From Symbiodinium natans (Eukaryota; Sar; Dinophyceae; Suessiales; Symbiodiniaceae): 64,000 nt of DNA. The stretch is taken from the NCBI GenBank assembly GCA_905221605.1, contig CAJNDS010000038.1:92526-156525 (forward strand), given 5' to 3'. Numbering within the stretch: position 1 is the first letter of the stretch; the number at the start of each line of letters is the position of its first letter. Positions 1 to 62,345 of the stretch are shown here, in pieces. The notes below the pieces were generated by a model. The model did no database searches, had not been told where the DNA came from, and saw only the letters and a program-made list of their open reading frames with translations. The position numbers and the translations under genes were made by a program.

Positions 1-3000
1 GCGATTGAGAGGTATGCCACGATTCTGGAGGATGAGGGCGTGAACTACCTCTACATGAAAACGGCCGTGGACCGAGGGAGCGGTTCTGAAGTGGTGGTTG
101 GCGGGCACCTTCTTCTGACTGAGCTGCTGGTTCCATGATATTTGAGCGTTTCTGTGCGGGTTTCATATGTGCGGGTTTCATATGGTACTACGGTTTCCTT
201 TCGTGTCGATAACCTCGTTGGAATTGTTGGAGTCGGATGAACAAAGTATTTCTCGTCCTCTGATGCGTGTCTTTCCACGCGCTCTCTCAGCGCAGCCAGC
301 GTGCAGCTTGGGTCTCGCCCAGGTGGAGAGAGCCCACTCGCCCAAGAATTTGTGGGAGAGGGTCAAGCTTTCGAGGACACCCGCGATATCCCGCGATCAT
401 TGATGTCCACGATGTTCATGTTCATGGTTCCCCTGCAGATTTCAAGCTCAGAACCCTGATGGAGGGCCCCGAACGTACTAGAACCCTCCGAAACCCTTTC
501 GGAACCCCAAGACGCGTCGAAAGCTGGAAAGACTTTGGGACAATGTTTACTTAAATGCCGAGCAGCATCCTTCAGTTGATCGTTGACATGTCACATTCTA
601 AACATCCGTGTCGACCCCCTGACCGTCGCCACGTTGCTTACAGCCAGCCCCCAGAGGGTGCCTGGCCGCCACAAGGTCCCTTCAGCCCTTTTTTGTAGGT
701 TTGCGGAGCGGTTTTGGAGTTTAGGGCGTTTAGGGTTGTAAGGTTGAGGTGAGACGGCTCCGCAAGACCTGACAGGTACGGCATGACGAGCATTGACAAG
801 GCGCCGGCACATGTGCGACGAAAGATTCACAACCTATAGCAGCCCTATCACAGCCACAAAGAAGCCAACCCCACACCCCAAGTCGAAATACCATGACTCA
901 GGGGTTAAGTTGGGGGTACAGCGGGTACGGAGGGAGTGCCCTGATCAGGACAGCTTCTCGCTGAGCGCCCTTGGCCACCAAGCGCAGAGCCAGCGCTCGT
1001 CTGCTCCACATCATTCCATCTCGTGTGTCAGCCGAGATGCGCGGCAGCTGCCCGGCAGGAACAGATTTGACATGAACAGACTCCACATGTCCAGGCGCTC
1101 CTCCTTCCCTGTTTGGGAAGGTGTCACGGGAACAAGGTTTAATGCATTAGTGTATTATGTTCTTCTTATGTGGGAGAGAGAACACTGGCCATAGCTGCGA
1201 GCCTTGGCAAGGAATGTGTTCATCACGGAGCACCACATCAAGCCCAACCGCTTGGGGCGAGAAAGTCCCAAAGTGGACACGGTGAACTTGCCGTCCACTT
1301 TAGACACAAATCTGTGGCTTGGCTCTGAGTATTTCTGGTACCGTTTGGCAGGGCAGCGCGCCTTCCTCTTCCTATTCCTTCTTACAAGCCTGGCAGGGCG
1401 ACGACCACTGGCCTGGGATATGGTGGGAGATCGGATTTTACTGCTCAGAAGGTGGATCCAGAAAGTGCCTTGAATCGAATGGTGCAGTCAGTGTGCGCGT
1501 AGTGCTATGGCATGTTAGCAGGTGCCAGCTTGGAACCCTGCGATGTATAGGCATCCCCACAAATGATGCCATGAACCTCCTTCCGGACGGTCAGCAGTTC
1601 AAGTACAAGCGGGAGCCGAAGATCGTGATCGGCACTGTGCCGCAACCGCAGATTCTACGGGCTCAATACCTACTGTGCTGCACTACCTTTGAACGCAAGC
1701 CTTAAGACAAGTGAATACTGTGGTCTCTATAGTTGCTACAACGGAACTCCCTTGATGAGAGCCACCGGCACCGAGGAACCCCGCTTCAGCTTGAAGGAGT
1801 CCACCCTGCTGAAGACGCACAAGGCGGCCTTCTTCGGTAGGTCCTCTCCGGGACCTGCCGCGGTTGGCGACCAGCGACCCGCCAGTTTAGGGGGATGCTT
1901 AGGGGGATAGGGCCTTAGGGGGATGCTTAGGGATGCTTACCAAAAGCCGCTGCGGCAACCCTGAGTTTGATAACTTGATAACCCCCTGAAAATCTCTGAG
2001 CCAAGGTTTGGTCCAAAGTTTGAGGCCACGAAAGCGCGGATGGCACCTGCGTTCCCATTTGCTGGGAGCTCAGCCAGGAGCTGCACAGCATGCTCTGCTA
2101 CGAGCCAGATGAGATCAAGCACCTTCAGTAGTTCTACTTCAGTTTGTACATATGCTGTGATCATCTACTTGCATTTGATGTCAGTCACAACTCTACTGTG
2201 CGGTGCTCGTCTAGTCTCATGCCGACCAAGTGTAGTGGTTGTGAGCATGTGATTGAACATCGTACTGCCGTCAGCTTTGTTTACCGCGGTACGGCGATGT
2301 TTTGTGGTGCTATGTTGCGAATCGTGCAGAAAGATGAGGTTCATGAAAGGAGCTCGCTGACGAAGGGTGTAAATATGTGAGTTTTCATGACGAGATACAT
2401 GAGACAGCCAATCGGCATAGTCAATCTCATAATGCCAAGCCTTGCATGAGCAGGGGTCGAGCAGAAAGGGAGCAACGGTTTAGCACCACTTACGCCAGAT
2501 GCGAGCCAACTCCCCAACTTGGGGTGTTTCTGTGCGCGCGTGTTGACTGCCACAGAGGCTCACAAGACCAAGCTGGTCTGGCCTGGAGTTTACAACAACC
2601 CGCCCGAGGCACGCCTGGCGGGAGCAGGAAGCCTTTTGAACCCTTGGAGACATCTGCCGCGCAAACGCTCTCCCTGAACCCAATCCACACACCCCGTGCA
2701 TCCCGCAGCCAGAACTTTGTGGTCCCTGGGTACCCCAAGTATGACAGGTTGGACCAGGCACCTTCGAGCGGAAGGACGGCCAAAGCATCGGGCGGAATCA
2801 GGCTAATTCGGGTAATTGTCCCGGGTCCAAGGATGAGGGAATATCAGGACTGTTTTCAGATTCTAGAGTGTATATGGTTGATTCGGGTCTTAGACGAGTC
2901 TCAAAAGTGATCTGTTGAGCTCAGCTGCCCAGGATTCATCCATAGGTCCTCAGCACCTGAGTCGGCGACGCAATCATTCCACCTACTCCTTCTCCAAGCA

Positions 3001-6000
3001 GCCGAAGTTTGGCCGAGAAGCTAAGCCTCTCAGCCCCACTTGGCCATGCATGAGTATATGCTCTCAAGGTAAAAAGCTTCAGGGCCTGCCAAAGGTTTGA
3101 TGAGGCCTTAAGGCTTGAAACTGAAGGCCGGATGATATGATCTCCAAGTACGATGCAGCGCGCAGCTGCATGGGCAAGCAAGTGCTGCACAAGAACCGGA
3201 GCGCGCCGAGCGTCGGCGCCGGCCTCGGCTCTGTGTGGAATTTGGGGGGGTCTTCTTGGGAGTGGGATCGTTGAGGGGGGGAGAGCCGCCCAGCCCTCAA
3301 CAGGAGCTTGTAGCTCAACTGAGATCATGTTGTGTTGCCTTCCGCTGACCGTGAGCCTCTAGGTTTCAACCACGACACCCGCGACATGCGATCCAAGACC
3401 AAGCTGTGCATCACGTGCCATGGCTGAGAATGTTTTGGTCTCTTGGGCCTTGTGTGTTTTGTGGGATTCCCTTGACCTGCCCCTTCAGAGGAAGCTGGAC
3501 GAGGGTCCTCGTGCAAACTTCACGAAGATGCACCTGCCGATGCCGCGGCTACCGATGGAGAAAACGACGCTTGCCTGGATTCCTGTGACAGATCCTCCCG
3601 AGCCCTCGCTGTTAGGCATTAATCAGCCTGCAAAGCTTCCATTCGGCCAACACATGAACGACCGGTGTCGGCCATGAGAGCTCAGAGGCAAGCTGTGTTG
3701 CCAGTCGTTTGGAGTCCGGAACCTTGTCGCTTCCTCGGTTAGGGCCATGTCTGAAGGTAACATGACATATGTAGGCCCTTGGAGGTTAGTCTGAACGTGC
3801 TTGCTGTGTGTTCCAGAGCAGACGGATCCTCCTGAATCAGTATGTTAGCATCGGACAAAGCAGTTCTTGCAGATCCCATCTTGTTTTGCGTCTTTGCAAG
3901 GGGGGGGGGGCCTCCAAGCATGTTGCGCAAGGTTCATAGAATCCATTCGAATGTCTCGGGCCTTCACAGGATCCTCGCCAGCGGCTTTGGATAGATCCTG
4001 GTGGTGCTCGACACGCTTGTTTCACCCTTTGCGCATGCCAGCCCATGATAGCCAATCTGATAGCCCAGTAGTCCATGTGTCCTCAAAGGGAGGCAGCGGG
4101 CTCTCGGAGAGTTTGGTGCTCGCGACTGCAGCTTTGCCAATGAAGCGCCAAAGAATCCCAAGAAGAATACGGCTGCTCAACACATCCGTCTGCAGTTGCC
4201 AGCCTTTCACAGTGAACGTGATTCCCGTTCGCCAGTGACCTCTGGGATACAGTGCCCGCTCTGGGCCGATTTCCCAGGTGTGTAGTGCCATCGCACAAGC
4301 TGGTGGTGTGTGTGCGCGCGTGTGCGCAGGATGTTTCACGGACTGTAGGAGGAAAGGCGTGCAGAGCATTGGGGGGCATCTGTGGAGGGGTTTCACGGCA
4401 AGATGGTCACTGCGAGGAATTACCTGCAGGCCTTGGAACAGATCAACAAGCACCTGGAGTGAGCGCAGGGCAGCGGTTGTTCCATGTTGATGTTTAGCCG
4501 AAGAGCTTGAAGAGCTACCCGAAGCCGAAGACTGTGCATGGTAAGTCTGTGAAGTCTGCCCCTTGATCGTTGCTTTTGCGGAGGTACTGGCCGGCGGGCA
4601 TCGTCAACCGCTGCAAGCAGCGGCTCACAAAGATGCGACAGATGCTGATCCGGTGGCGGCCTTTCGGGACATCCCAGTGACTGAGTTGCGGCTCCTCCGG
4701 ATGGCACCGAGGATGCGCAAGCTGGCCCTGAAAGGCGGCAGCAAGTGCGCCCCCTCCCGATTCTGTTGCGTTGATCTGCAATGATCATGGCCCTTTCTGG
4801 AAGCAAAACAATGTAGCAGCACCGACACGCCGGAACGACACTGGGAGCGAGTATCATCTTGATGCCGAAGTCATCACAGCGAAGGGTTGGGCAAGCATGC
4901 AAACTTCGAAAGACATGAACAGCAGCACAGGTAGCATCACTGGAATGCCCCCCCCCCCCCCCCCCCCCCCGCCCCTCCCCCTCCCCCTCCCGATGTTGTT
5001 TTCGGAATGCCCGAGGCAAATCCAAAGTGTTTCGGGTTGATCGAAGGAATCTTCCTTGCATTTTGACCACGGAACATTGGCGAGTGGCAGCTTATGGCCC
5101 TGGAGTGCAACGGCTAGCCTAGCAAGCCTGCTTCAGACTTGTGTGGTCATTGCCGCTGTTTTCAGGCTCCGTGGGTTCATGACCAAGTCGTCACGCAATC
5201 AGGCTCAAGCACTTGCGGAAGCGCAAAACAAACGTTAATCAACGTATAGACAATGTAGAACACCCTAAACCTCAGCTCTCCATTATCTCCATTAGCCAAT
5301 CTCAACTCAACAGCAGTCCCCATCTCCTCGAACAGATTTGTGGCGCAGGCTGGTACCCATCAAGAAGAAGACGGAGAGACGCGAAGCGACCCGTGAACTG
5401 AAGGCAGCTGCGCTGCTGCCATGAACACAGAGAGCCCACAGAGCCCTCACCAATTTTGAAGTTCGATCGATCTGAGAGCATTGTGTGGTTGTGCTGGTTG
5501 GACTGGGAGAAAATTGGCCAGGCCGAGGCAGCTGCTAAAGTGGACTTGGCCATAGAAAGGGAGCTCTTGGAGCGACTGAAGCAGGCGGAAGGGAAGCGAA
5601 GGGAAGCGAAGGGAAGCGAAGGGAAAGGGGTCCAGGAAAGAGTTTACGTGATCACGAGAGTGACAGGGCACCTACGGTGACGTCTACAACTTTCCCAAGA
5701 AGCAGTTGCATGCCCAGAGACGGAGCAGAAACAAGTACCTAGCTGTTCTAGATTGGGTTCGGCTGGTGTAATTTCAGGTTCGACAGCATCATGGAGAAGG
5801 ATGGAGAAGTCGAGAAGGAGCGTTTTGTCTCTTGCGCCGTGGTTTTCCGGCTCAGTAGGAGCAGTACATGTGCGCTACACCCGCGTGGCTTCTTGCTCAC
5901 CTTTCAGCATGAAGATGTTTTTGGTCTTTCGTGACTCTGGAGGAGCTGCAGGAGGGTGCTGAAAGCGACATGGAGTTTGTGGAGGAGTGTGGGCTTCCTC

Positions 6001-6540
6001 ACTTCATTCGGGAAGCTCCGTGTCGAAGCAGCCAAAGCATGCAGCCAGGATTTTGGGGAAGACGAGGAGGAGGAGTGGGAGGACCTGGATGACAAGGTGC
6101 TTAGATGGCTTCTGATGGCTTCATGTTGCTTTGGCTCATCTATCCATGGACGTCATGAGCAGATGTCAGGTAGAAGAGGTGGAGCTCGAGGATGACTTGG
6201 GCATGGCTGACATGGAGGACTCCTTTGATCAAGCGCTTCCTCTTCTTCTTCTGAAGTCTTGCAAAGATCTTTGATGCTCAGCCACAAGAAGAAACTCTTG
6301 TCGCGCCAGTCAAGATTTCAATTGCCGTGGTCAAGCATGAATCAAAAAGTTTTCAAGAGCTATGGGTGTCATATGGTGTAATCTGCAGGATGTGGCTCTG
6401 CCGGCACGAAAGAAGAGGCCTGGGTTCGGCTTGAGGTGACGGGAGAGAGAACAGAGGAGCGCAGTGCTTGCAGGAGAGCCAAAGGCCCACGAGTGGAGCT
6501 GGAGTACGAGGAGGAGATGGACGCAAGGAGCGATGTTTCT
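1..6540 (+). CDS. MAK16: MAK16, 60S ribosome biogenesis factor (5'-partial, multi-exon)
   Basis: Mak16 is a nucleolar protein needed for 27S pre-rRNA processing and 60S subunit assembly (family knowledge). The window opens inside its conserved N-terminal half. Pieces collinear with the family: ERYATILEDEGVNYLYMKT (1-63), VERAHSPKNLWERVKLSR (323-375), NYLQALEQINKHLE (4417-4458), YWPAGIVNRCKQRLTKMRQ (from 4584, exon to 4652), MRKLALKGGSK (4712-4744), LVPIKKKTERREATRELK (5349-5403), AEAAAKVDLAIERELLERLK (from 5522, exon to 5584), GTYGDVYNFPKK (5667-5704), FDSIMEKDGEVEKE (5778-~5820), TLEELQEGAESDMEFVEE (~5930-5985), DFGEDEEEEWEDLD (~6050-6092), VEEVELEDDLGMADMEDSFD (6171-6230) and RAKGPRVELEYEEEMDAR (6475-~6530). 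Joining at AG|G acceptors keeps frame. Donors are GT (4459, 4653, 4745, 5705), GC (64, 5404, 5585) and apparently GA (376). The true stop and the last junctions are not resolved. Confidence 0.9.
376..4416 (+). other. 4.0-kb intron of MAK16
   Basis: The Mak16 reading VKLSR (ends 375) continues as NYLQALEQ at 4417, so about 4 kb is removed. The sequence is CGAG|GA at both ends, so the exact cut is ambiguous within the repeat and the donor reads GA if the acceptor is AG. All other measurable introns of this gene are much shorter, for example 59 bp at 4653-4711. The interior holds several exon-like open segments on the same strand. Confidence 0.7.
1204..3677 (+). CDS. Candidate nested gene or exon-like segments inside the MAK16 intron
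   Basis: Not recognised. Several short open segments have coding-like composition: ARNVFITEHHIKPNRLGRE (1204-1320), SDFTAQKVDPESALNRMVQ (about 1431-1487, followed by an in-frame stop), MNLLPDGQQFKYKREPKIV (1570-1660), TEEPRFSLKESTLLKTHK (1766-1835), CVPICWELSQELHSMLCYEP (2040-2128, ending CAG before a stop), FNHDTRDMRSKTKLCITCHG (3364-3423) and KLDEGPRANFTKMHLPMPR (3493-3677), the last preceded by a pyrimidine tract and CAG. They could be a nested gene, a gene relic, or chance. No family or start codon could be assigned. Confidence 0.35.
5586..5629 (+). repeat. 10-bp tandem repeat in a MAK16 intron
   Basis: About four copies of GGGAAGCGAA begin directly after the inferred GC donor at 5585, inside the intron 5585-5666. 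Confidence 0.8.
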
Positions 6541-6559
6541 CTGCGCAATCTGAGCACTT

Positions 6560-7156
6560 CTGTCATCTGGGTTGCTGCGCATGGTCATTGCAGCAGCTTT
6601 GCTCCTGCTCTGAAAGAATCTTGAGCCGATTTGGAGCTCGGAGAGTTCGGGGCTGGAGCCGTCTCCAGATATTGCAGGTAGCGTGCTCTTCTCCCCAGTC
6701 CTGAGCAGACAATAAGTCCGGAGCTGAGTTTCTGGTTTTTGCTGGCCCATGTGGTGCCGCCGCATGCATGGATAGGCCTCGAGTGACTTCGGCTCAGCTC
6801 AGTCTCACCTCAAGACCTGCCAGCATCCGCCGGCAAAGTGCGAGAAAACTGCAGCCACCAACGGACTGAACTCGGCTCAGCAGCTCAGCATCTCTCGAGC
6901 TTTGCTCATCCGCCGCGCCGCTGCGACAGTTTAGGTTCTTGCTGTCATTCTCAGTTTCAGCGCCAAAGTTCTTATTCTAGTCGTTCGTCTGAAGTTGGCG
7001 AGACGGGGCGAGAGATCGGTTCCTGGTCTAGTCACTGCGAGAGGTGTCTAGTCACTGCGAGAGGTGTCCGCACATGGCTTGTTTTTCTGCTACATCAAGA
7101 TATGCCAGCTGTCCAGGGTTCCAGATTCACAGTGTGGTCACAGTGTAACCGCTGCG
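6560..7156. other. Intergenic stretch, no gene seen
   Basis: No recognisable exon between the end of the Mak16 reading and the ATG at 7157. It contains a 21-bp direct tandem duplication (TAGTCACTGCGAGAGGTGTC, 7029-7069). If genes are unidirectional here, this is the spacer between MAK16 and the next + strand gene. Confidence 0.5.
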
Positions 7157-9745
7157 ATGCTGCGGCTTCTGGCAGTTTGTGCTGCTCTTTATGCGGCGGC
7201 GGGAGCAGCGGATGGCCTGGTGAAGTATCGGCTGATTTGCGACGGCGCCAGCAATGGCATGCATACCTAGGACTACAACATAGTCAACATCGACAACGCC
7301 ACATTTCCGTTGCCACTTGGCAGCAGAGGCTTGTGGGCTTTCTCGGGCACAGGAGACTGTGCTTGACATCCACTATGTTTTCTGCTCAATGCTTCGCAAA
7401 GTTGCTCTCCATGTTGCTCGAGGTGTCTGAAACCAGACAGAGAGACAATGATCATAATGGCCTGAGCGAGCCCTCAGTGATACCAGTGCATTGACACGCC
7501 AGAGGTTGGTGGGGCGCACTCTGCCGGCGTTCGTTCGATTCGACCGGGCACGCGCCCCAGAGAGAGGCCAGCAGCCGAGGCACGGAGAGCGGGAGAACAT
7601 TTCGAATTTCGGAAGCCCTTCTCGCTTGGTGGGGTGCAGGAGTATGCCTTTGGTGAGAAAGCCGATGCCTTCAAGTCGCATCTTGGCTGCAGAACTCGGC
7701 GAGCTTTAGGCCCCTAAGCCCAAGCAGCTTGGGCTCAAAAGATGAAAAGCGCAAGGTCACAGGAGCTTGATGAATCTTGATGAGACGCCGCGCTGTGTTC
7801 GGAACCCTGTGAAGGATGGCCTCTGTGGTCGCCAGGAGCGGGAGGCAAAGGAAGAGGGAACCTTTAAAAAACAGTCAGAGCGGCTGCACAACGGGAGTTT
7901 CAAAGACTTTATTGGGGGTACCTCTCGCCTTGCTCTCCTTATCTCTCCTTGCCTTGCGCCCAGCAGCACGATGATTGCCTCGGTGGGCATCTCGACCCAC
8001 GGCGAGAAGCAGAACCAAGACATGGCACCTCGCTTCCATGAGCCTCAATCTGCTTCAATGTTTCTACATCTATATTTCATTATATTATATTGTATTATAT
8101 TATATTATATTATATTCTATTATATTATATATATGTATATATATATATATATTGTATGTATGTATGGTTCAGCGTCGAGCGTCCTGGGCCCCCCCCCCCC
8201 CCCCCAATGGTATCCCCCCCCCCCCCCCCCCAAGTCTACTCTACGGTCCCTAAACCCCTAAACCCTAAACCCTAAACCCTAAAACCTAAACCCTAACCCT
8301 AAACCCTAAACCTTAAGTCTTAAACCTTAAACCCTAAACCGTAAAACCCTGAACCCTAAACCCTAACCCTAAAACCAACCCCCAACCACACCACAGGGGG
8401 GGGGGGGTATCATCTTAGTACCTCATCCGCGGGGAAAACCCTAAACCCTAAACCCTAAACCCTAAACCCTAAACCCTAAAACCCTAAAACCCTAAAACTC
8501 TAAAACCCTAAAACCCTAAAACCCTAAACCCTAAACCCTAAACCCTAGGGGGGGGGGGGGGGCGGGCCCGCCGGGGCCGAATCATGTATACAATTTTTAT
8601 ATACATACTATGCCACGCTGACGCTAGTATTCGTGATTGTAGTTATACCAATATACATCCCGTGATGCTGTCAGGCCTGCCAGTTTCATTTAGTTGAGAG
8701 GTTGGGTCGTGACAAATGGCATTTTCACGGAACGCTCGGGATTCTCCGGCGGTAGGGGCACGTAACGACGTTTGGACATAGGAGAGGAGTTTGAAGAGTT
8801 ATTGTGGGCTGCTTGGTGCCGCAGATGTACATGTTTGCTTTGTCGGCGTGTCACTGCGCGGTGTATCGCAGCCGTTGGACGCTGGCCTTCGGTGCAATGC
8901 GTGTTTGCCGTTGCCAGGCAAGACGTTTCGGCTTCATTCCTCAAGGCGCCCCCGATGCTCACGCATTGCTTTGAAGCATGTCGTACTGTTTCATGCAGAC
9001 AAAGAAGAGCTGGAAAGCAGCGACATGGACAAGCTCTTCCCCAAATTCATGTGCTCCGTGCTGTTGGTCAGCGTGCCGGCTCCTCAGTCGCATGTGGATT
9101 TCAATGCGAGGGGCTGGGACAGGTACTTCAAGCCCGGTGATGTGGAAGGCGCAGCATGACACAGCTGGGCATCCCGGAAAGCTTTGCAACGTGCATCCGC
9201 GTGCTTCGGTGCGTAGACTCAGACCACGCCTGGTCAGGGCAACTGTACAACGGGAAGGCCACAAAGGCCGGGCGCAAAATCCCATTTGCTTCGCGCTGCT
9301 TTGCCTTGCTAAGTGTTTCTCTTTCAGGGATATGAGCATAGCCAAGTATACTCCTGCCTTGAGCAGAGGCAGCCATGCTTAAGTTTCTGGGCATCGAAGA
9401 AAGAACCTGCGACGTTCTGACCGGTGCCTTCTGCAGCGACGAGCAGTGACCCAGCATGATTTGTAGGTTTTTGAGAGAGATTTTTTTTTGGGATTTCCTC
9501 AAACCCCGAAACTCAACCCCTACCTGAACTTCCTACAGAACCCTGCAAAAGCCCAACAGTACGACACCGGAGAGAGAAAGAAAGAGAGAGAGAGAGAGAG
9601 AGGGAGAGAGAGGAAAAACAAGACCAAGAACAAAAAGAGAGAAAATGAAAAGAGAGCAAAAACCCAGAGGAAGAGGCACCTGGAGTCCCTGGCGGGAAAG
9701 AGCTCCGAGGAGCTGGGCAAGCTCCTGAAGGCGCGCAGGGGCTGA
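7157..9745 (+). CDS. Unidentified gene with a signal-peptide-like start, discontinuous exons
   Basis: ATG at 7157 opens MLRLLAVCAALYAAAGAADG, a short positive N-region, hydrophobic core and small-residue end typical of a secretory signal. The same frame continues after one TAG (7268-7270) as DYNIVNIDNATFPLPLGSRG to about 7363. Further coding-like pieces: FEFRKPFSLGGVQEYAFGEK (7596-7690), CVRNPVKDGLCGRQEREAKE (~7795-7860), DKEELESSDMDKLFPKFMCS (9001-~9156, after a CAG), MTQLGIPESFATCIRVLRC (9156-9215), LKFLGIEERTCDVLTGAFCS (9377-9449) and a basic tail HLESLAGKSSEELGKLLKAR ending in TGA at 9745. No family recognised; grouping these into one gene is inference. A telomere-repeat element lies in the 7.9-8.8 kb gap. 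Confidence 0.4.
8075..8165. repeat. TA-rich microsatellite
   Basis: Runs of TATAT and TATATT, then (TA)n and TGTA units; low complexity immediately left of the poly-C element. Confidence 0.9.
8190..8570 (-). repeat. Composite poly-C / interstitial telomere repeat element
   Basis: Order: poly-C (about 8191-8206), AATGGTAT, poly-C (to 8231), GTCTACTCTACGGTC, (CCCTAAA)n to about 8370, CCAACCCCCAACCACACCAC, poly-G with GTATC (8397-8411), a second (CCCTAAA)n block (8438-8548), then poly-G (8549-8562). The + strand carries CCCTAAA. The same modules occur reverse-complemented at 61,860-62,345. A true chromosome end is unlikely because coding-like DNA lies on both sides. Confidence 0.85.
9569..9614. 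repeat. (GA)n microsatellite
   Basis: About 40 nt of AGAGAG with AAAG interruptions, just upstream of the basic ORF tail ending at 9745. Confidence 0.9.
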
Positions 9746-28578: not shown

Positions 28579-29166
28579 CTACGACAAGAACTTTCTCATG
28601 ACATGGGAGCATAGCTCTCCGCATGCCAGCCACAAGTCCTTACTGCGATTCCAGTATTCATACTGGGCGCTTCGCAGCTTGGCTCTCAGCAAGGAGCTAC
28701 CGGCTTTCGTGTGCTGATTCACACGCACACGTTCCTTTAGGAATCTCCAACACCGGTCTATGACCTGCGTGCCGGACTTCACTGTGATTGTCTTGTTCTT
28801 TGTGCCGGGCAGCTTATGCTTGACGATGCGGACATAGTGGGGCTGCACCCAACGCGTCTTCCCATTGACCTTGACCTGCTTTTTGCAGTGCACCACCCGA
28901 TCATGAAGAACCCCGTCGAGCTTGAGTTTGTAGCTTTTGGCTGAGTCAGTATGCAAGATAATCTTGCGACCGGACAAAAGCTTGGCACCCATGGTCTTCC
29001 ACTCGACCTTTCGGATTGCTCCCGGGCCCGGGGCACGCTTTACCGTGATCTTGGGCGTGAGCTTGCACAAGGTCAACGTCTCAGGACAGCCTCGCTGGAC
29101 TACACCCGCCCATTGCTCCCACATCATTGTGGCCTTTGGGGACTTGATGAGGTGCTTGTACTCCAC
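28579..29166 (-). CDS. ISXO2/IS1595-like transposase, N-terminally truncated (195+ residues)
   Basis: DDE-type transposase of the ISXO2/IS1595 group (eukaryotic Merlin relatives). Visible motifs: KIILHTDSAKSYK with the second catalytic Asp in a TDS context; DRVVHCKKQVKV, matching the H..V.H region after it; HYVRIVKHKLPG; then SGTQVIDRCWRFLKERV, at the position of the family's IE.FW..LK block, where the third acidic residue reads Asp. The frame is open upstream of the first Met (TFDKRDISKDVEYK) to about 29,199, where a stop is met. The region with the first catalytic Asp is not visible, so the ORF is probably a fragment. The stop is just left of 28,582. Confidence 0.85.
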   Translation of the reverse strand: MEYKHLIKSPKATMMWEQWAGVVQRGCPETLTLCKLTPKITVKRAPGPGAIRKVEWKTMGAKLLSGRKIILHTDSAKSYKLKLDGVLHDRVVHCKKQVKVNGKTRWVQPHYVRIVKHKLPGTKNKTITVKSGTQVIDRCWRFLKERVRVNQHTKAGSSLLRAKLRSAQYEYWNRSKDLWLACGELCSHVMRKFLS

Positions 29167-38038: not shown

Positions 38039-38130
<92 letters not shown>

Positions 38131-38270
38131 CTCCCCCCCGCTACCCCGCTCCCCCCCCCGCTCCCCCCCGCTCCCCCGCCCCCCGCCCGCTCCCCCTCGC
38201 TCCCCCCCACTCCCCCCGCTCACCGCCGCTCACCCCCGCTCCCCCCCGCTTGCCAGAAGTGCCAACGGTA
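38039..38270. repeat. 90-nt poly-C run followed by a CTCCCCCC minisatellite
   Basis: C at every position 38,039-38,128 as given, then CCCCCCGCTC / CCCCGCTCACC units to about 38,250. It creates spurious Pro- and Gly-rich ORFs. The exact homopolymer length depends on sequencing quality. Confidence 0.95.
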
Positions 38271-38978: not shown

Positions 38979-39401
38979 AAATTGTAAACGCTTGCGCGCG
39001 CCGCCTCGGCAGCCGGGCCGGCCCCAGGACAGGAAAGGAGGGAAGAGGGTTTCGCAAAAAAGGGAGGAAGGGGGGGGGTGGGGGGGGGGGGGGTGGGGGG
39101 TGGGGGGGTGGGGGGGGGGGGGGTGGGGGGGGGGGGGTGGGGGGGGTGGGGGGGGTGGGTGGGGGGGGGGGGGGGTTGGGGGATTTTTGAGGCACTCCCC
39201 TGTAGGAGCCACCGACAGCGGGACCCTCCACGGCATCGGTTTGCAGCTCCTCCAAGGGATTGGGGGGGGTCCCACAGGGCGGGGGGGGGGGGGGTGGCGT
39301 CAGAAAGTTTGGCATGGCAGAAAGGGTTGGGTTAGGGGGAAGGAGGCCCGATCCGAGTCTGCTTGTTCCAGACGCTTCTCGGCAGGAAGCCGAGGCGAAT
39401 G
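38979..39401 (+). repeat. Dispersed repeat, copy 2
   Basis: AATTGTAAACG at 38,979, an inserted GC-rich and poly-G/T block (39,069-39,178), then TTTTTGAGGCACTCCCCTG through AGGAAGCCGAGGCGAAT, collinear with copy 1 at 15,001-15,245. Confidence 0.85.
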
Positions 39402-47100: not shown

Positions 47101-47464
47101 ACATGTTTCCACATGTTGGGTTGCGTTCCTTGCAGTTTTGGTTTCCGTCACTTACCCTGGATGTTTGTGAGGTCTACTGTTTTCATACCATCCGACTGCT
47201 ATATGATAAGCCCTCCAGGGCCTGTCACCCCTCGCCCCCGGCCCCGGAAATTGCGAGATCATTTCTCGAACGGGCACACTCATGTCTCCAAACCTGCCCT
47301 TAATTTTAACGCTACGCGACCCACCTCGGCCTGGCCCAGCGCAGCCCGAGCATGTGCATGGTGGGATTTCCTGCCTGGCCGAACTCGAATTTAGCCCAGC
47401 CTAAGTAAGTTGCGCTCGGTAGTTTGGCCAGGATGCACCTCATGCATCAACGCCAGATGCTCAC

Positions 47465-47580
47465 CCTTGACCTGAGACCCTAGACCCTAGAACCTAGACC
47501 CCTGTGACCCTAGACCCTAAACCCTACCCTAAACCCTAAACCCTTAGGGCGGGGGGTAGTGGGGGGGGGCGGGGTGGGGG
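47465..47580 (-). repeat. Short telomere-like patch and poly-G
   Basis: CCCTAGA and CCCTAAA variants (47,476-47,546) followed by G-rich GGGGGGTAGTGGGGGGGGG. Confidence 0.85.
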
Positions 47581-49800: not shown

Positions 49801-50579
49801 AAGGGAAAGCGCATGTCCAGGGAGCCAAAATGAGCCAGGGCTTCACCGTCACGGTGGGGCTTAAGTGTCCAGCTCATGCTGCCGGACATCGCTGTTTTTG
49901 GTTTCGAAGTGCAGTCGGAAGACCTCGAACAGGTCTGACGACACGCCTTTTCTCATGCAACTGCACAAGTCCGGGACGCCGAGTGCAACAGTGCCGGCGA
50001 CAGGTCGCCAAAATCTGCGCCCAGGGCGGGGGAGCTAGCCGGCCGGTTGCGTGGTAAACGTGCTGGCGGCGACGCCAGCACCTCGCCGGTCACGACCCCA
50101 GCAGATGCCCAGCCCGCTCCGACGTTGTGATAGAGGTCCAAGAGCGCGGCGGTACGTCAAACATTTTCGTGCGTCGGATGCCCAGACTACTGCAGGCCTT
50201 GGAGGGTGTCGCCGTCCACCTTGCCCCCCCACACAGCTCCTCCCGCCCGCAGCGACCTGCCCGGACATGTGAGCACGCGTGCGAGACGTATCTTGCTGAG
50301 TGTATCTTGCGCACGCTGCTGCTTGGGCGGGTTTCGGCCCAACACGCCCACGGCTCCCTAGTCCAGCAACGCTTGTGCGAGGGCGAGGACCGTATTCTCG
50401 ACGACAGCGACCCATGTCGCAGTCGCACCCGACAGGATGCGCCGTTTGCAGGAGCTGCGGGCCGCATCTGGAATTCCACTGGCGAGGAACCGGAACCGCC
50501 CGGCATCTCTAACTTGCAAGTAGCGGGGGGGCGAAGCTGCTGTGCTGGCGTGTGGGGTGTTTTTGACGTTACGGGGAAG

Positions 50580-51100
50580 ATGCTCCGGAAAGACCACTTT
50601 TCTCGAAGAGCCACTTTTCAAGAAGTGGCTTTTCGGGAAAAGTGGCTTTTCAGGGACGCGACGCGCGCAAACAACGCGAGAAAAGTTACTTTTCGCAAAA
50701 AGTGGCTTTTCGAGAAAAGTGGCTTTTCGCGGACGCCGCGCGCGCCAACGTCGCGAGAAAAGTGGCTTTTCGAGCAAAATGGCCTTTCGAGAAAAGTGGC
50801 TTTTCGAGAAAAGTGGCTTTTCAGGGACGCGGCGCGCGCAAACGCCGCGAGAAAAGTCACTTTTCGAGAAAAATGGCTTTTCGAGAAAAGTGGCTTTTCG
50901 CGGACACTGCGCGCGCCAACGTCGCGAGAAAAGTGGCTTTTCGAGCAAACTGGCTTTTCGAGAAAAGTGACTTTTCGAGAAAAGTGGCTTTTCAGGGACG
51001 CGGCGCGCGCAAACGCTGCGAGAAAAGTCACTTTTCGAGAAAAGTGGCTTTTCAGGGACGCGGCGCGCGCAAACGCCGCGAGAAAAGTCACTTTTCGAGA
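50580..51100 (+). repeat. Hairpin satellite array, forward arm
   Basis: More than twenty GAAAAGTGGCTTTTC-like units (GAAAAG and CTTTTC are complementary around a TGG loop), interspersed with GGGACGCGGCGCGCGCAAAC and CGGACGCCGCGCGCGCCAAC spacers followed by (A/C)CGCGAG. It yields long spurious ORFs in several frames. Local higher-order units of about 120-180 bp are visible. Confidence 0.95.
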
Positions 51101-51104
51101 AAAG

Positions 51105-51210
51105 GAAGTGAGGGTTTAGGGTTACGGGTTTAGGGTTTGGGGTTTCAGTAGGGTTTAGGGTTTAGGGTTAGTAGGGTTTAAGGTTTAGTGTTGAGGGTTA
51201 GAGCGCGCGG
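51105..51210 (+). repeat. Interstitial TTTAGGG patch between satellite arms
   Basis: Degenerate GGGTTTAGGG repeats on the + strand adjoining the forward arm; the satellite resumes at 51,223 in reverse orientation. Confidence 0.9.
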
Positions 51211-51222
51211 TGTCCGCCAAAA

Positions 51223-51285
51223 GCCACTTTTCCCGAAAAGCCACTTTTCTTGAAAAGGCAGCTTTTGCGAAAAGTGACTTTACTA
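51223..51285 (-). repeat. Short reverse-oriented satellite block
   Basis: AAAAGCCACTTTTCCCGAAAAGCCACTTTTCTTG, the reverse complement of the forward-arm unit. Confidence 0.9.
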
Positions 51286-51289
51286 TTGA

Positions 51290-51720
51290 AAGCCGGAAAA
51301 GGTAGTGTGTCCATTGCGTTGTGCACCCACTTCTCTCGCCGTCGTGGACAGCTGCGTGACTCTGTTCACAGGACTACTAAGTTAGCAATGTTAAGCTTAG
51401 AGATTCGAATTTATTGGGTTCGAGGTTTAGGGGGCTCCGAGGTTAGTGAATCCCTAATCGTCGAAGAATTTCGAGAGCCTAATGCTCTTAATCTTCGACA
51501 GCGACTCTGTCAGGCTGTGAACCCCTCTACTAGAATTCCACAATCCCCCCCAGCTACTATGATTATCAAGGCAGGTATAAATGCTGCCGTGAGTGCCTTG
51601 CCGTGCCATCTCAGAGAAGCAGAAAAGGGAGGTGTAGAGGTTCTCTTGGTTGCTTCAATGGTGGGCGCCGTGTCACTTAGTGCTGGCGCGTTGCATGTTC
51701 TCGAGAAGCTTCTACCGAAA
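51290..51720. other. Unique spacer inside the satellite palindrome
   Basis: About 430 bp without satellite units, open in one + frame (51,250-51,930) but with no recognised family. Confidence 0.5.
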
Positions 51721-52610
51721 AAAACCACCCGTTCGCGAAAAAACCACTCTTCGACAAACGGTACTTGCATCGAAAAGCTGTGTTGGTTTTTGTTTGTAAA
51801 TGTGCATTTTCTCATGGCGTTGGGGCACGCAGCATTAGTAACAACACGTCTCTGGACAAGCTACTTTCAGAAAAAGCGTTGCCTGTGGCATATTCCGGAA
51901 TGCCACTTTTCTGGAACAACACTTTTGTGAGTAAAGTGACTTTTCTCGCGGCGTGGGGGCGCACAGCGTCTTAGAAAAGCCACTTTTCTCGAAAAGCCAC
52001 TTTTCTCGAAAAGCAACTTTTTGCAAAAAGTAGTAACTTTTCTCGCGGCGTTGCGCGCGCAGCGTCCAAAGCCACTTTTCTCGAAAAGTGACTTTTCTCG
52101 CGGCGTTTGCGCTCGCCGCGTCCCTGAAAAGCCACTTTTCTCGCGACGTTGGCGCGCGCAGCGTCCGCGAAAAGCCAGTTTTATCGAAAAGCAACTTTTC
52201 TCGAAAAGCGACTTTTTGCGAAAAGTAACTTTTCTCGCGGCGTTGGAGCTCGCAGTGTCCGCGAAAAGCGACTTTTCTCGAAAAGCCACTGTTTGCGAAA
52301 AGTAACTTTTCTCGCTGCGTTGGCGCGCGCAGCGTCCGCGAAAAGCCACTTTTCTCGCAAAGCCAGTTTTCTCGAACAGCAACTTTTTGCAAAAAGTGAC
52401 TTTTGTCGCGGCGTTGGAGCGCGCGGTGTCCACGAAAAGCCACTTTTCTCGAAAAGCCGAAAAGCCCACTTTTCTCGAAAAGCCAGTTTGCTCGAAAAGC
52501 CACTTTTCTCGCGGCGTTGGAGCGCGCGGTGTCCGCGAAAAGCCACTTTTCTCGAAAAACAACTTTTTGCGAAATTTTGCGAAAAACAACTTTTCTGGTC
52601 GGTTTTCCCG
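51715..52610 (-). repeat. Hairpin satellite array, reverse arm
   Basis: GAAAAGCCACTTTTCTCG units (reverse complement of the forward arm) with GCGGCGTTGG(A/C)GC(G/T)CGC spacers. The left part (51,715-51,950) is decayed. Confidence 0.95.
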
Positions 52611-52954
52611 CTAACCTGGAAGACGCACCGTGTGACAGCTCAGCGAAGCTGCGCGGGTTGGGGATGGGTCACTTCCGCGTGGCCGTCAAGGCTTCATCGT
52701 CCTCGGCACACCCCTTGGTGCAACGTATTCATTCGCCAGCACGGTGGTACCCACGTCGGTCGCGGTCGCTGGGGCAAAATGAAAGTTCGTCAACCGGCCG
52801 GCGGGTCTGGGTGGGAGACTTTCTCTTAGGATCTCACGCCCCCTCGGCGACGACAGGATCATGTCACGAAAGCTCGCGTAGCGGAGCTGGAGTTTTATCT
52901 GCTAAAGGGGGCCGACCACGGCCAGAAAACAGCGTATTCTTGATACTATCTTAT

Positions 52955-61690: not shown

Positions 61691-62345
61691 TTACGGTTCA
61701 GGGTTGAAACGGTTTAGGTTTCGGGTTTGCCCTTCTTCCCCTTGTGGTTCATTGGCGGGTTTAGGTTTTAGGGCTTAGGTTCAGGGTTTGGGGTTTGGGT
61801 TGAGGGTTTCTCTCCACCCCCCATGTGGTCCGTAGTGTTTTAAGGGTTAACGGTCAGGGTTTGGTGGGGGGGGATACCATGGGGGGGGGGGGGGGGGGGG
61901 GGGGTCGATACGCGGAACCGGGCGATATATCCAGTGCTCCCCGGCCCCCCCCCCCCCCCCCCATGGTCTGGACCCCCCCCCCCCTGGGTGTGGTTGGGGG
62001 TTGGTTTTAGGGTTAGGGGGTTTAGGGTTTAGGGTTTAGGGTTTAGGGTTTAGGGTTTAGGGTTTAGGGTTTAGGTTTTGGGTTTAGGTTTTGGGTTTTG
62101 GGTTTGGGTTTTGGGTTTGGTTTTGGGTTTAGGGTTTAGGGTGGTTTAGGTTTAGGGTTTAGGGTTTAGGGTTTGAAAGGTTTTAGGGTTAACCCCCCCC
62201 CCCCTGTGGTGTGGTTGGGGGTTGGTAGGGTTTAGGGTTTAGGGTTTAGGGTTGGTTTAGGGTTTAGGGCTTGGGGTTTGACAGGGTTTAGGGTTTAGGG
62301 TTAGAGACCGTAGACCTGGAGGGGGAGGTGGGGGGGGGGGGTAAA
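61690..62345 (+). repeat. Telomere-repeat / poly-C composite elements
   Basis: Degenerate then regular TTTAGGG arrays (61,700-61,850; 61,995-62,190; 62,228-62,305). Within them: GGGGATACCATGGGG (61,870s), poly-G (61,881-61,903), poly-C (61,946-61,961), CCCTGGGTGTGGTTGGGGGTTGG (about 61,983-62,005), poly-C, then CTGTGGTGTGGTTGGGGGTT (62,205-62,224), and GACCGTAGACCTGG before poly-G and GTAAAC. These modules are the reverse complement of those at 8,190-8,411. Confidence 0.9.

Follow-up and report, generated by a model that had tools for sequence, protein, structure and literature searches.

A probable DNA transposon family with palindromic repeat arrays, scattered through the genome of Symbiodinium natans and apparently without coding sequence

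Inverted arms of tandem repeats around a central region are described for the Foldback, Galileo and Tetris elements. Tetris is a foldback-like DNA transposon of Drosophila virilis, described as apparently non-autonomous, with repeats of ~220 bp inside its terminal inverted repeats (TIRs) and many rearranged forms, and it is reported to have seeded longer satellite arrays (PMC4079207). Galileo, a P-superfamily element, is described as having long, internally repetitive TIRs, and some of its tandem repeats hold binding sites for the THAP domain of its transposase (PMC3688188).

The window, a stretch of 64,000 nucleotides of contig C38 in the Symbiodinium natans genome (759 Mb in 2543 contigs), contains at positions 50,540–52,643 one copy of a DNA transposon family that is scattered through the genome and apparently lacks coding sequence. 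The family is new; the kind of structure, a DNA transposon with TIRs, is already known. No published description of the family was found among the best matches in the open-access literature, supplements aside. Like Tetris as described, the family is apparently non-autonomous, contains tandem repeats and occurs in many rearranged forms, but its units are palindromes of 17 bp and its arms are direct in relatives. Tandem repeats within the element are also shared with Galileo, as described; the family differs from it in having short and imperfect TIRs, direct arms in relatives and no transposase recognised in the ORFs compared. The initial annotation had described inverted arrays of a self-complementary satellite resembling no known gene or transposon; TIRs, 8-bp target-site duplications and dispersed copies were found, and the locus can be recognised as a mobile element whose ends, target-site duplications and subfamilies are defined. 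Very probably, a non-autonomous TIR DNA transposon was inserted at 50,540–52,643, and the whole left array was inverted in the window copy.

The general layout of the family between its ends is left array, tract or gap, core and right array. In the window copy, the left end, which is one of the two imperfect TIRs and begins with CTGTGCTGGCGTGTGGGG, occupies positions 50,540–50,586 (plus strand) and was defined by the homology edge in five aligned copies, by further copies, by genome search and by TIR alignment. It is followed by two array units in the usual orientation of the family (50,588–50,618, minus strand); the left array, inverted relative to relatives (about 50,614–51,104, plus strand) and traced by exact units, GC-rich spacers and a diagnostic reversed segment at 50,614; a segment with a degenerate TTTAGGG tract, common to other subfamily A copies (about 51,105–51,201, plus strand; repeats seen at 51,111–51,199); array units between tract and core in the usual orientation (51,202–51,284, minus strand); the central region, shown by genome search to be conserved in other copies (51,285–51,900, plus strand); and the right array of GAAAAGCCACTTTTCTC units and GC-rich spacers (51,897–52,597, minus strand). 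The right end (52,598–52,643, plus strand), also an imperfect TIR, terminates in GGAAGACGCACCGTGTGACAGCTCAG, with TTAG in most relatives, and was defined by the homology edge, genome search and TIR alignment. The 8-bp duplication CGAAGCTG lies outside the ends, at 50,532–50,539 and 52,644–52,651, so the structure extends beyond the limits of 50,580 and 52,610 given initially. The oppositely directed arrays of the initial annotation are real, with forward units at about 50,619–51,104 and reverse units at 51,202–51,284 and 51,897–52,597, and the TTTAGGG repeats do lie at the edge of the forward arm. The arms as first drawn held for their opposite directions, but not for the left array, which starts with two 'reverse' units before the flip. 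The supposedly unique spacer of 430 bp is a central region of ~610 bp, and its genome search yielded 37 matches spread over 28 contigs, among them the contig of the window.

Homology among the copies has sharp limits, CTGTGCTGG... at the left end and ...GACAGCTTAG at the right end, and the end letters of the family are CTGTGCTGGCGTG and CTAAGCTGTCACACG. The two ends form an imperfect inverted repeat with 27 of 41 bases matching; under a scoring scheme chosen by us, its score was 11.5 against a mean of 3.0 for base shuffles, none of 2000 shuffles being as good. Among the first 20 bases, 11 are alike.

About thirty copies of the family are present in the genome. The search with the right end gave 39 matches (23 exact, 6 with one mismatch and 10 with two) against 2 for the backward control; the left end gave 83 (21 exact, 7 with one mismatch, 5 with two and 50 with three), where the three-mismatch matches are mostly noise, the backward control being 35. 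With at most one mismatch, 29 right and 28 left ends were detected genome-wide. In the first six clusters, the left-edge sequence (~47 bp) was found in four and the right-edge sequence (~46 bp) in five, in one copy weakly; parts of the middle of the window copy were common to five. The set examined comprised 27 copies, namely, the window copy, the six first clusters and twenty later stretches. Copies are dispersed in unrelated flanks, with the exception of L053 and L055 (contigs C1715 and C1795), which represent a single copy, flanks included, in a duplicated or haplotypic stretch and count once. Two-ended copies range from 326 bp to 9.5 kb, and L060 is, by eye, an apparent 84-bp remnant with 11 bp of the left end. 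The two flanks of L062 resemble, by eye, a pair of inverted repeats, and this copy may have inserted into a different palindromic repeat.

Two subfamilies are distinguished by the core: one contains most or all of its ~617 bp, and the other contains about positions 194–390 only, together with longer TTTAGGG arrays. Over 197 bp of the core, 18 copies are 90–100% identical. Subfamily B copies L009, L057, L058, L062 and L063 are 99–100% identical over this segment and have different flanks, which suggests recent movement.

Exact 8-bp duplications abut the ends in 5 of 18 two-ended copies (the window copy, L013, L046, L047 and L063); the number rises to 7 with up to one mismatch (L056 and L064) and to 9 with up to two (L049 and L050), against 0 of 306 cross-pairs of 8-mers at 0–1 mismatch. 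One of the exact cases, L046, is a copy of 461 bp with a single array. L055 was dropped from this test as a duplicate of L053, and the C1391 copy, which has TCCTGGCC before its left end and GGTCCTGGCC after its right end with the 8-mer offset by two bases, was left out. The remaining 9 of the 18 copies (L009, L010, L048, L053, L054, L057, L058, L059 and L062) have no clear 8-bp duplication, with at least four mismatches; some of these look offset, as in L058, where GGTTGTAT appears after three extra bases, and others have no duplication. Exact matches between own flanks were absent from the 18 copies at lengths 3, 5–7 and 9–12. Duplications of length 4 were also in excess (3 of 18 own pairs against 1 of 306 cross-pairs), which counts against the preferred reading, as do the nine copies with no clear 8-bp duplication, the imperfect ends and the absence of a recognised transposase from the ORFs compared.

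Terminal inverted repeats, 8-bp target-site duplications and dispersed copies together assign the family to Class II TIR transposons. Duplications of 8 bp fit several superfamilies. One of these, hAT, combines them with the terminal motif YARNG, the second base of which is usually A. The family is similar to hAT in the length of its duplications and in having C as the first base and G at position 5 of both ends, but the ends begin with CTGTG and CTAAG, with T as the second base, and depart from the YARNG motif.

Judged by comparison of sequences among copies, the left arm of the window copy is an inversion of ~490 bp, from about 50,614 to 51,104. Exact units are reversed in 9 of 17 cases in the window copy and in 5 of 447 cases in the other 26 copies (three in L010, one in the C1391 copy and one in L061; the whole C1391 copy was used for this count instead of L052). 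Reversed GC-rich spacers number four in the window copy, one in L012 and none in the remaining 25 copies; in L049 and L060, which belong to these 25, no spacer matched in either direction. Allowing one mismatch raises the number of 'reversed' units in other copies, to 16 in L009 for example, since a single change separates the symmetric unit GAAAAGTGACTTTTC from its reversed form. All six relatives tested aligned better with the reverse complement of the left arm than with the arm in its present orientation. Seven of the 26 other copies carry the segment CCACTTCTTGAAAAG immediately to the left of their TTTAGGG tract (letter for letter in L047, L048, L053, L054, L055 and L056, and with one changed letter in L011), and 19 lack it; in the window copy, its exact reverse complement is located beside the left end. 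The orientation of units and spacers, the arm alignments and this reversed segment indicate that the array was turned as one block.

These orientations also bear on the reading of the locus as a transposon of the Foldback type, with the window copy as the intact form and inverted repeat arms as the functional design. The window copy does have inverted tandem-repeat arms (333 nt, 85% complementary) around a central region, as described for Foldback, Galileo and Tetris elements, but where relatives have units on both sides, these point the same way, as they do in L013, L047 and L063, which have exact target-site duplications. With arms direct in relatives and strongly reversed only in the window copy, a Foldback design is very improbable. 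The two-level inverted symmetry pointed out initially is real and, in the window copy, reflects an internal inversion, close to the break-repair or fold-back event then proposed; it is not the design of the family, because reversed GC-rich spacers occur only in the window copy and L012.

The inversion is known from one assembly, and an assembly error in a real transposon, with near-palindromic 15–17-mers traversed on the wrong strand, could account for the flipped arm. Near-palindromes occur every 17 bp of the array, both joins of the inversion lie inside units, and the arm is the only strongly reversed one among the 27 copies. Such an error is nevertheless unlikely: the reversed block is one coherent piece of ~490 bp, the far edge of which matches the tract-side segment of relatives in reverse, and the longer, purer arrays of L009, L057 and L058 were assembled without flips. 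For a genuine inversion, the simplest cause would be a short inverted match between two units, since at the left join CTTTTC overlaps the preceding unit and fits both sides. Every unit offers GAAAAG/CTTTTC arms in both directions, and recombination or template switching between such short arms may have inverted the left array and produced the mirror image.

The junctions between tract and array are identical in the window copy and in L011, L047, L048 and L053–L056, seven other copies at six distinct sites, and therefore the TTTAGGG tract travelled with the element; it is not a mark of this particular site. The family has thus carried the tract to several sites, and at least the family-borne part of the interstitial telomere-like DNA of the genome traces to transposition and not to chromosome-end events. 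Break insertion is a described route for interstitial telomeric tracts in vertebrates (PMC8537989). An alternative origin, in which break repair rearranged a local satellite and captured telomeric DNA without any transposition, would be consistent with a telomere-like tract inside a broken array and with the interstitial TTTAGGG tracts common in the window and at other loci. The conserved ends, the target-site duplications and the recurrence of one tract junction in unrelated flanks argue against this origin, which is extremely improbable, and in favour of a tract inherited within the transposon.

Among right flanks, 6 of 30 contained (TTTAGGG)2, and among left flanks 6 of 17, compared with 28 of 103 tiles located more than 1 kb outside left ends; thus, right and left flanks showed no insertion preference for TTTAGGG over the neighbourhood. 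The frequency in tiles of the window is far lower than in the neighbourhood tiles (4 of 151), and there may be a regional preference. Further interstitial TTTAGGG/CCCTAAA tracts are located in the window at 8,248–8,547, 47,463–47,544, 61,757–61,809 and 62,006–62,302, and such tracts also occur around other copies. Long C-rich and G-rich tracts, ~1 kb apart, are present at 38,039–38,250 and 39,070–39,182.

The repeat unit is palindromic and ~17 bp long, and units in the arrays are separated by GC-rich spacers; the consensus is a near-palindrome, in agreement with the self-complementary unit noticed initially. The genome-wide search for the 15-mer, suggested at the same time, gave 291 + 249 exact matches against 0 + 2 for the backward control, so that 540 occurrences against 2 are not due to chance. 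Of these, 464 lie inside the 27 copies examined, and the remaining 76 were not placed. Satellite DNA in the sense of free-standing long tandem arrays was rejected on this distribution; no free-standing array was seen, in which the family differs from Tetris with its reported longer satellite arrays.

In 326 units from seven loci, covariation between the unit arms did not exceed that of shuffles, and compensatory changes numbered 0 at five of the seven pairs, 6 at the outermost pair and 1 at the innermost. Selection on hairpin pairing was rejected, since arms lacking covariation give it no sequence support; the unit is possibly a dimeric binding site. As single-stranded DNA, 333 nt of the right array folded with modest stability (z −2.45; 3 of 100 shuffles as good), and 421 nt of the core were not stable beyond shuffles (z 0.18; 56 of 100 as good). 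Rfam at the gathering threshold and a tRNA scan detected nothing in the window.

Comparison with Pfam revealed no transposase in the ORFs of the window's arrays and core, in the C1391 copy (977 of 1744 codons) or in four ORFs located upstream of one-ended copies, and none was recognised by eye in ORFs of six loci, including L058. The 226-aa ORF of the central region matched no Pfam family. Matches of the window's array and core ORFs to PF23228 (E 0.0088), PF08708 (E 0.028) and PF04593 (E 0.099) were sub-threshold and taken as chance. Elsewhere in the window, an ORF at 28,579–29,166 (minus strand) is weakly similar (E 0.027, short of the curated cut-off) to an ISXO2-like/IS1595 transposase domain. 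In L061, an ORF upstream of the right-end array resembles by eye a C5 DNA methyltransferase, with no Pfam match at E 0.01.

The C1391 copy (9,542 bp) was rejected as an autonomous partner, since its interior, with identical direct repeats of 288 bp and a long CCCH-finger ORF of 1744 codons, reads as a nested LTR retrotransposon. The first 977 codons of this ORF encode CCCH fingers, Torus and MLLE domains according to Pfam. This apparent retrotransposon (L052, L065) occupies element positions 712–7967 within the TTTAGGG tract of the copy and, by eye, is bordered by TAGGG at either edge. The additional DNA in L058 was likewise rejected as autonomous content and looks like another minisatellite.

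Movement of the family would need a transposase in trans. An enzyme encoded elsewhere would presumably recognise the ends and perhaps the subterminal units too; a role of these units as transposase binding sites would follow the model of Galileo. In a broader and rather doubtful form of this proposal, the arrays would be multi-site platforms for the trans-acting transposase, with arms able to flip since identical short arms are available in either direction in every unit, and the family would spread telomere-type repeats through dinoflagellate-like chromosomes. The family offers a clean case in which to study how palindromic subterminal repeats are used and rearrange. Relatives may be present in other assemblies, since the protein search with the translated right array gave, besides one protein that is by eye the window's own ORF, four others on other contigs, two of which seem by eye to run into the left end of the element.
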